Translations under genes and position numbers: made by a program | From: Chthoniobacterales bacterium | Lineage (GTDB): Bacteria > Verrucomicrobiota > Verrucomicrobiia > Chthoniobacterales > UBA10450 | Reading direction: 5' to 3' | NCBI GenBank assembly: GCA_025934755.1 | Contig: JAICWQ010000007.1 | Location: 1 to 40,676 of the forward strand | Length of the DNA: 40,676 nt | Notes under the pieces: model-generated | What the model saw: the letters and a program-made list of their open reading frames with translations, nothing else | Database searches by the model: none | What the model was told of the DNA's origin: nothing | Shown here: positions 1-38,608 of the stretch, in pieces | Numbering within the stretch: the stretch's first letter is position 1 | Layout: each line of letters starts with the position of its first letter

Positions 1-221
1 AATCGGGCAGATCCGCTGACGAACGGCACGTTCAGATCGTTCTCGGCGTGCTGGATGATTCCTTTCGGAATTTTGAGCGAATCGAGCTCGTGTTTCGCAA
101 CTTGTTTGGCATGACCACTCAACACCAAATGGACCTCATGGGCGGCGGCGTCGATTTGGTCCAGCAAACGCTGGAGATAAATCGAGCCGCTGGCGCCAGT
201 GGCGGCGATCACAAGTTTCAT
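1..221 (-). CDS. ubiX: Flavin prenyltransferase UbiX (partial, runs off left edge)
   Basis: Reverse strand from CAT at 219-221 reads MKLVIAATGASGSIYLQRLLDQIDAAAHEVHLVLSGHAKQVAKHELDSLKIPKGIIQHAENDLNVPF..., the UbiX/Pad1 N-terminal motif. The listed + ORF 48-374 is its antisense. Confidence 0.9.
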   Translation of the reverse strand, partial: MKLVIAATGASGSIYLQRLLDQIDAAAHEVHLVLSGHAKQVAKHELDSLKIPKGIIQHAENDLNVPFVSGSAR

Positions 222-226
222 CGGAT

Positions 227-252
227 TAGACACGAATTACACGGATTTTCAC
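227..252 (-). repeat. ATTCGTG-type short-period repeat, left arm of an inverted pair flanking the GxxExxY gene
   Basis: Reverse strand GTGAAAATCCGTGTAATTCGTGTCTA; 22/26 identical to 902-927 on the + strand. Confidence 0.75.
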
Positions 253-377
253 TAACGGGAACTAAAGACATACCGAACCCCTCCGATTCTCAAAAATGCC
301 CGAAGGATGGGATCTCTGTCCGGACTGAAGTCATAGCATTGCAGCAAGTCTCGACAAATTCCTCTCCGAACTGAATC

Positions 378-752
378 TCATAAGACAACCCTCTTCCATT
401 CCAGCGAGTCGCCACCGAAATTTACCAGCAAGCCGAGTCTGATCTTGGACGCAGCCAGGTAGTTCAACACTTGTTTCTTGTGGGCGTCACATAACTGTTC
501 AACGGCCTTTGCTTCGAACAAAATCTTGTCCCAAATAATGAAATCCGCGAAATACCTGTGGGGAAGGACAACTCCTTTGTAACTGACTGAATAGGGTCTT
601 TCCCGAGAAAATGGAATTCCGGCGCGACTCAGCTCCACAACGAGAGCATCCTTGTAGATGATTTCATCATGTCCCTTGCCCAGTAAACGGTGAATCTCCA
701 TGCAAAAACCGATAAGTTGAAAAGCTTCCTGTTTGTGAAGTAACTCACGCAT
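378..752 (-). CDS. GxxExxY family protein (PDDEXK-like fold)
   Basis: IHRLLGKGHDEIIYKDALVVEL...GIPFSRERPYSVSYKGVVLPHRYFADFIIWDKILFEAKAVEQL...Q.LNYLAASKIRLGLLVNFG, the characteristic GxxExxY layout. Confidence 0.88.
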   Translation of the reverse strand: MRELLHKQEAFQLIGFCMEIHRLLGKGHDEIIYKDALVVELSRAGIPFSRERPYSVSYKGVVLPHRYFADFIIWDKILFEAKAVEQLCDAHKKQVLNYLAASKIRLGLLVNFGGDSLEWKRVVL

Positions 753-804
753 CCGGGGGGACGTCGATTGTCACGCGTTACGGCGCTCAGAGTCAATCCG
801 TTTG

Positions 805-929
805 GAACTATTCGTGTGAATTCGTGAGTCCGTGTCAATCCAGTTTCCAACTATTCGTGTGAATTCGTGAAATTCGTGTCTACGCCGGTTTTCAACTATT
901 CGTGTGAATTCGTGAAATTCGTGTCTACG
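805..929 (+). repeat. Three tandem copies of AACTATTCGTGTGAATTCGTGAAATTCGTGTCTACG-like sequence
   Basis: AACTATTCGTGTGAATTCGTGA begins at 806, 849 and 894; internal 9-10 nt periodicity. Confidence 0.9.
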
Positions 930-936
930 ATTGTGC

Positions 937-1323
937 ATGGTGACAAAACTCTTACACACCCGTTATCGAGTGAAGGACTTGGAAAAAACGGTCGATTTTT
1001 ACAAGAACGTGCTCGGCTTGCAGGAAATCCGGCGACACACCTCCGGGCGCGGATCACAACTGGTGTTTTTCAAAGCTCCCGGAAGCGACGAGGAGATCGA
1101 GATCTGCAAATTCGACGAAAGCGGACCGGTGATCGTCGGCCCCGACCTGACTCATCTCGCCTTCGAAGTGGATGATCTCGAAAAATTTGCGGGCGAATCG
1201 GCCGCAAAAGGATATCCACTGTCGGACGGTCCCCATAAAACGTCGGGGGGCAGCGCGATAGCGTTTATCGACGCGCCCGAAGGCTACGAAATCGAACTGA
1301 TTCAACGCGGAAAAGATTTATAG
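937..1323 (+). CDS. VOC/glyoxalase family protein (lactoylglutathione lyase-like)
   Basis: MVTKLLHTRYRVKDLEKTVDFYKNVLGL...; ATG at 937 preferred over TTG at 931. Confidence 0.88.
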   Translation: MVTKLLHTRYRVKDLEKTVDFYKNVLGLQEIRRHTSGRGSQLVFFKAPGSDEEIEICKFDESGPVIVGPDLTHLAFEVDDLEKFAGESAAKGYPLSDGPHKTSGGSAIAFIDAPEGYEIELIQRGKDL

Positions 1324-33230: not shown

Positions 33231-33313
33231 CGTTAAAACGTCGAAGCGATACAGCGTTGAAGCGGCTCCCCGGCAGCGGACCGGTCCCGGTTCAACGCTT
33301 TAACCCTTCAACG
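33231..33313. repeat. Inverted octamer arrays upstream of metK
   Basis: CGTTAAAA CGTCGAAG CGATACAG CGTTGAAG (33231-33262) versus inverted GTTCAACG CTTTAACC CTTCAACG (33290-33313). Confidence 0.75.
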
Positions 33314-34529: not shown

Positions 34530-34532
34530 TCA

Positions 34533-34563
34533 GTTTTAGGCTTTAAGTTTTAAGCTTTAAGTT
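34533..34563 (+). repeat. Heptamer array, left arm of inverted pair flanking the four-helix-bundle ORF
   Basis: GTTTTAG GCTTTAA GTTTTAA GCTTTAA GTT, ending at the ATG. Confidence 0.85.
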
Positions 34564-34962
34564 ATGGCCTATCAATCGTTCGAAGATCTGGAAGTATGGC
34601 AGCGAGCATGCGCGCTTTCGGTTCGAATTTTCGAGGCATTCGCTGACTGCAAGAATTTCACACTCAAGGACCAGATCGGCCGCGCGTCCTTATCCATCCC
34701 CTGTAACATCGCGGAAGGATCTGAGCGCGGCAGCACGAAAGACTTCGCGCACTTTCTAAATTTTTCGAAGGGATCCTGCGGCGAACTGCGCGCTCAGATT
34801 TATATCGCCCGTAGATTAAATCTGCTTCGCAAAGACGCGTTCGATCATTTCATCACGGAGACCAAAGCTATTTCCAAAATGCTGGAAGGATTGCGGCGTT
34901 CCATGCTCGCAAAGAGCCGGCCCAAAGAAAAGCGGATCCGACGCAGAAAACTTAAAGCTTAA
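34564..34962 (+). CDS. Four-helix-bundle protein, S23/IVP (23S rRNA intervening sequence) family
   Basis: SFEDLEVWQRACALSVRIFEAF...FTLKDQIGRASLSIPCNIAEGSERGSTKDFAHFLNFSKGSCGELRAQIYIARRL. Confidence 0.92.
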   Translation: MAYQSFEDLEVWQRACALSVRIFEAFADCKNFTLKDQIGRASLSIPCNIAEGSERGSTKDFAHFLNFSKGSCGELRAQIYIARRLNLLRKDAFDHFITETKAISKMLEGLRRSMLAKSRPKEKRIRRRKLKA

Positions 34963-34979
34963 CACTTAAAACTTAAAGC
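34949..34979 (-). repeat. Heptamer array, right arm of inverted pair flanking the four-helix-bundle ORF
   Basis: Reverse strand GCTTTAA GTTTTAA GTGTTAA GCTTTAA GTT; contains the full 24-nt left core plus one extra 7-nt unit. Confidence 0.85.
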
Positions 34980-34980
34980 T

Positions 34981-38526: not shown

Positions 38527-38608
38527 AGTGACGAGTGACAAGTGACCGGTGACAAGTAAAGAATTATCAATCTGAAGACTCGTCACTCGCCACCTGTCAC
38601 TCGTCACT
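38527..38608. repeat. Inverted GTGACNA heptamer arrays between divergent genes
   Basis: Left AGTGACGAGTGACAAGTGACCGGTGACAAGT (38527-38557); right reverse complement AGTGACGAGTGACAGGTGGCGAGTGACGAGT (38578-38608). Confidence 0.88.

Follow-up and report, generated by a model that had tools for sequence, protein, structure and literature searches.

We propose that positions 227-929 of the window, by which we mean the whole 40,676-nt stretch of Chthoniobacterales DNA that was analysed, are a small mobile-element cassette that occupies the gap between ubiX and a VOC gene and resembles REPIN/RAYT systems, but with a dedicated enzyme of the PD-(D/E)XK type. We give this reading a probability of roughly 0.6, and the binding, cutting and copying that it implies are inferred. 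The layout of the cassette, the gene-dependent number of gene-less hairpins and the covariation of the array unit with the protein together fit a system of the REPIN/RAYT kind.

Anatomy and polymorphism of the cassette between ubiX and VOC

The preliminary description of this locus had claimed that a GxxExxY gene is bracketed by an inverted repeat pair matching at 22 of 26 positions, whose outer ends nearly touch the start codons of ubiX (ATG at 221, minus strand) and VOC (ATG at 937). Both start codons lie at these positions, and the repeat pair was confirmed by match counts and shuffling. Segment 227-252 matches the reverse complement of 902-927 at 22/26 positions, and the pair lengthens to 24/29 when taken as 227-255 and 899-927. 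The Smith-Waterman score of the arms was 16.5, while dinucleotide shuffles of the flanks gave a mean of 8.4 and a maximum of 15.5 (0/2000 as good), and the pair is one of the longest inverted pairs within 900 bp across the window. The reading as a cassette also held, since arms were found around most GxxExxY genes elsewhere. The view of the flanks as a single repeat pair held only in part: both flanks are inverted arrays of ~9-nt units with the core CRCRRAK, such arrays are also present as gene-less hairpins, and the array on the VOC side is a tandem triplicate of ~45 bp, so that 854-887 also pairs with the left arm. This anatomy is shown (Table 1).

Table 1. Coordinates of the GxxExxY and S23 cassettes and of neighbouring genes in the window.
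Feature	Position	Strand	Remarks
ubiX, 5' part	1..221	minus	at contig start; start codon 6 bp from left arm
Left arm	227..255	+ (as read)	array of ~9-nt units; ubiX side, 3' of GxxExxY gene
Left-arm units	231-237; 240-246; 250-255	+	CACGAAT; CACGGAT; CACTAA
GxxExxY gene	378..752	minus	124 aa; PD-(D/E)XK family
Right array, copy 1	797..841		TTCGTG-type units; most degenerate copy
Right array, copy 2	840..884		854-887 inverted relative to 222-255, 79% complementary
Right array, copy 3	885..929		contains arm 902-927 of the preliminary description
VOC/glyoxalase gene	937..1323	+	start codon 7 bp from right array
S23 cassette, left arm	34532..34563		TTTAAGT-type units, 7-nt period
S23/four-helix-bundle gene	34564..34962	+	TIGR02436
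S23 cassette, right arm	34949..34980		

A second contig of the assembly (C221) carries a ubiX that is 97% identical together with a matching cassette end, and this duplicate likely reflects a strain mixture in the metagenome-assembled genome (MAG).

The encoded protein matches PF13366 (E=5e-34, 117.5 bits; curated cut-off 22) and TIGR04256 (E=7e-38, 129.7 bits; curated cut-off 35), so the description of GxxExxY as a small orphan family failed: the gene is a clear member of PDDEXK_3 in the PD-(D/E)XK nuclease superfamily. Nuclease activity is inferred from the sequence alone. When the HUH/Y1 transposase (PF01797) and S23 (TIGR02436) families were considered beside PF13366, only the last matched the cassette's protein. 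Among close homologues D70, E80-A-K82 and E30 of the GxxExxY motif are invariant, and in divergent homologues the lysine remains invariant and the aspartate is mostly kept. The cargo is under purifying selection, with dN/dS of 0.12 and 0.05 in the two pairs that had measurable synonymous divergence. This genome carries nine GxxExxY genes, which are mostly 31-39% identical to that of the window, and thus there is no sign of a recent cassette burst. A search by sequence for relatives with solved structures found none, and an AF2 model built from 8 sequences was poor (pLDDT 55). Carriage by viruses was rejected, as searches of IMG/VR and of phage records gave no relatives.

The presence/absence polymorphism of the cassette is shown. 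In three genomes of the same genus (G001, G002 and G004) the gap between ubiX and VOC is 48 bp long and has no insert, whereas the cassette is present in this genome, in G005 and in the AV52 MAG. Several other genera of the family have ubiX-VOC spacings of 45-58 bp, close to the 48 bp of the empty sites. The gap between gyrB and gyrA varies likewise among sister species: in two of them it contains a GxxExxY cassette, in two others a gene-less hairpin whose unit differs (TGACGAA), and in one a single array. The cassette thus moves or has moved, the movement itself being inferred. We saw no target-site duplication at either gap, where the flanks have diverged, and no excision or new insertion was observed.

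Inverted arms at other loci and covariation with the protein

In this genome 8 of the 9 GxxExxY genes lie between inverted arrays, each with its own unit. Inverted arms were likewise found at 24/30 GxxExxY loci of relatives, with a similar result for S23 (28 loci), and at 29/30 loci in a phylum-wide draw. True flank pairs were scored against mispaired flanks of other cassettes, and in all three sets (this genome, relatives, phylum) arms pair far better within a cassette than across cassettes. The association extends to other phyla; like arms stand at several GxxExxY cassettes in Bacteroidota and Alphaproteobacteria (Bacteroides, Bernardetia, Sphingomonas), and those of the Bacteroides finegoldii cassette are TTCACCACAGAGGACGCAGAGGACACGGAG and its inverse. 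A minority of GxxExxY genes (L188, L043, L053 and L156) has weak or absent inverted arms. In Persicobacter (L158) and Fusobacteria (L156) the arrays or ~50-bp repeats on the two sides of a GxxExxY gene run in the same direction instead of being inverted.

The unit varies from cassette to cassette, yet it is common to both arms. The claim that the layout matches that of the S23 cassette, with different sequence and unit length, held: the period of GxxExxY arms is about 9 nt (8-10) and that of S23 arms is 7 nt, and the cargo family could be predicted from arm composition alone in 65/76 cases (shuffled maximum 51). At least 16 S23 genes are present in this genome, nearly all bracketed by inverted arms with 7-nt units. 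Two gene-less hairpins in the window, at 38527-38608 and 33239-33313, have S23-type units, GTGAC and GTTGAAGC.

That the array unit tracks the protein subfamily even where the sites are unrelated is shown. For pairs of cassettes at unrelated sites, arm similarity rises with protein identity (r=0.38 for GxxExxY and r=0.55 for S23, both p=0.0005). Relatives of the window's protein at 71-80% identity occupy four different sites, and cargos that are 76-84% identical at unrelated sites have switched units in concert (CACGAAT/CACGGAT/CGCGAAT). Between closely related cargos, a unit change hits the copies in both arms together.

These observations bear on a reading at the level of RNA, in which the element resembles the intervening sequence (IVS) of 23S rRNA, pairing of the arms takes place in the transcript, where they are cleaved by RNase III or serve as terminators or mRNA stabilisers, and the gene is either incidental or left over from earlier mobility. 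In its favour, S23 is the protein family of the 23S rRNA IVS; the Coxiella IVS contains an S23 gene, has heptamers in tandem as well as inverted ends, and is removed by RNase III (PMC4990558). Hairpins also stand directly after stop codons. Against it, G-U is not favoured over A-C among the mismatches of the arms (64 vs 60), folding of the cassette transcript does not exceed that of shuffled sequences (z -0.23), and RNA pairing requires neither a direct unit periodicity nor covariation between protein and unit. A conserved RNA was rejected as a candidate, as there was no Rfam match, no excess of folding and no G-U bias. We consider the RNA reading unlikely, but it is not excluded.

Gene-less hairpins and their dependence on the GxxExxY gene

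Short gene-less hairpins of cassette-type arrays adjoin stop and start codons at gene borders. Over 115 genomes, the number of arrays per genome was 29 on average (median 10) with GxxExxY and 1.2 (median 1) without it (p=3e-14), while a reversed control pattern gave 0.9 and 0.5, respectively. When every gene is credited with two arms, at least 1192 of the 1506 arrays remain outside cassettes and the difference persists (p=0.0005). At the family level array number and GxxExxY are related with a rho of 0.63, and the direction was the same in 6 of the 7 families that have both gene states. The dependence is shown, but since the counts were made with a generic pattern that covers one unit type only, in genomes that are related, it is a correlation only.

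Three observations stand beside these counts. A genome of the same phylum (G061) shows an extreme expansion, with 425 CRCRRAK arrays to only five GxxExxY genes. The sole genome with at least 6 arrays in which no GxxExxY gene was detected, G125, has 10 and is a possible case of recent gene loss or of an assembly gap. At one locus (L006, around 1501-2300) the units CAACGTC and GTCACAG are seemingly read through in frame inside a thiC-like ORF, adding repeat-derived peptides, as judged by eye.

In an alternative explanation, another enzyme or process (RAYT, another transposase, or slippage or template switching during host replication) mobilises the hairpins, and GxxExxY is a passenger or an addiction-type gene caught between two of them. 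In the AV52 MAG the GxxExxY gene (L074) lies between two complete hairpins of ~88 bp, which are about 80% alike and in direct orientation, and therefore an origin by capture remains possible. RAYT-family genes are also common in these genomes, and quasi-palindrome correction is a process that could homogenise inverted arms. However, array number follows GxxExxY and neither RAYT nor S23: presence of RAYT had no effect among genomes without GxxExxY (p=0.77), nor did that of S23, whereas GxxExxY had a large effect among RAYT-positive genomes (p=4e-10). RAYT and S23 were accordingly rejected as drivers of the arrays. The tracking of protein subfamily by the unit also argues against this explanation, which seems unlikely. 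This genome has hairpins (CACGAAG, CACAGAT) without a matching cassette; on contig C92 the stretch between two CACGAAG hairpins was considered as a further cargo and discarded, being just an ordinary 206-aa ORF that resembles a peptidase gene.

A role in the service of the host appears still less probable, indeed very unlikely; here GxxExxY would act as a structure-specific nuclease in resolving or trimming these hairpins, and arrays close to the gene would serve as its operator. PD-(D/E)XK folds include junction-resolving enzymes, and the genes are diverse, low in copy and under purifying selection, as such a role would have it. Against this, the gene is patchy within a genus, hairpins are more rather than fewer where it is present, and the gene occurs with its arms at unrelated sites.

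In the preferred reading as a mobile element, a gene of the PD-(D/E)XK family, framed by inverted ~9-nt arrays, would have been inserted into the gap between ubiX and VOC, and its protein would recognise its own array unit. The protein may act on both arms, or on gene-less hairpins built of them, and so drive copying or insertion into gene gaps, most likely by nicking the foot of a hairpin or cruciform, with repair or replication to follow. The gene-less hairpins would then be its non-autonomous counterpart, in the way that REPINs relate to RAYT transposases. Binding and cutting of the arrays by the GxxExxY protein and the origin of new copies are inferred, without activity or binding data. 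Further points that weigh against this reading are the missing target-site duplication and the lack of any observed excision or insertion, the poor AF2 model, the low identity among most GxxExxY genes of this genome, its hairpins without a matching cassette, the minority of genes with weak or absent inverted arms, and the merely correlative nature of co-occurrence in related genomes.

Relation to known elements and significance

In REPIN/RAYT systems (TnpA-REP, REPtrons), a gene is bordered by inverted repeats, gene-less hairpin pairs and singlets are dispersed in gene gaps, repeat abundance correlates with the gene, and diverse low-copy genes each have their own repeat (PMC3116915, PMC8266576). 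The GxxExxY element likewise has inverted pairs that are dispersed and vary in number with its gene, which is a behaviour common to both and not a sign of membership. The enzyme is of the PD-(D/E)XK type instead of a HUH/Y1 tyrosine transposase, and the arms are tandem 9-nt units where REPIN/RAYT systems have single short palindromes tagged by GTAG or CGTC; no constant GTAG/CGTC foot was seen by eye in the printed cassettes and hairpins. As the enzyme class and the design of the repeats differ, the GxxExxY element is not a member of REPIN/RAYT, and its array number is also independent of RAYT genes.

The S23/IVS elements of Leptospira and Coxiella, long suspected to be mobile (PMC4990558), are similar in that complementary ends bearing short tandem repeats enclose a small gene. 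GxxExxY, in contrast, is an unrelated protein family with 9-nt units, a different grammar and no heptamers, and its cassette sits between protein genes and not in rRNA. MITEs of classical transposons also retain the ends of a gene-bearing element without its gene, but the GxxExxY element lacks a DDE transposase, no target-site duplication was seen at its diverged flanks, and its ends consist of unit arrays whose sequence changes in step from one close relative to the next. The association of GxxExxY with repeats was not described in the open-access literature that we searched, where the names PF13366 and TIGR04256 appear only in passing.

A bolder reading, which we hold to be slightly more likely wrong than right, is that these cassettes represent an undescribed class of mobile element, in which a lone PD-(D/E)XK nuclease of ~120 aa would recognise short-unit arrays, with a re-programmable unit in both arms, and would spread hairpins that lack the gene into the gaps between genes, across phyla. 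Elements with an S23 four-helix-bundle gene and 7-nt units, rRNA intervening sequences among them, would form a sister class of the same architecture.

If the mobile-element reading is correct, the element would account for the imperfect intergenic arrays of the CACAGAG/CACGGAT type in these genomes, and a nuclease family that is widespread but almost absent from the literature would be placed in its genomic context and given a role that can be tested. S23 genes and rRNA intervening sequences, puzzling so far, would become tied to a broader class of elements. If the protein does read its unit, the natural variety of units and matching proteins would be a data set on how a small nuclease changes its DNA specificity.
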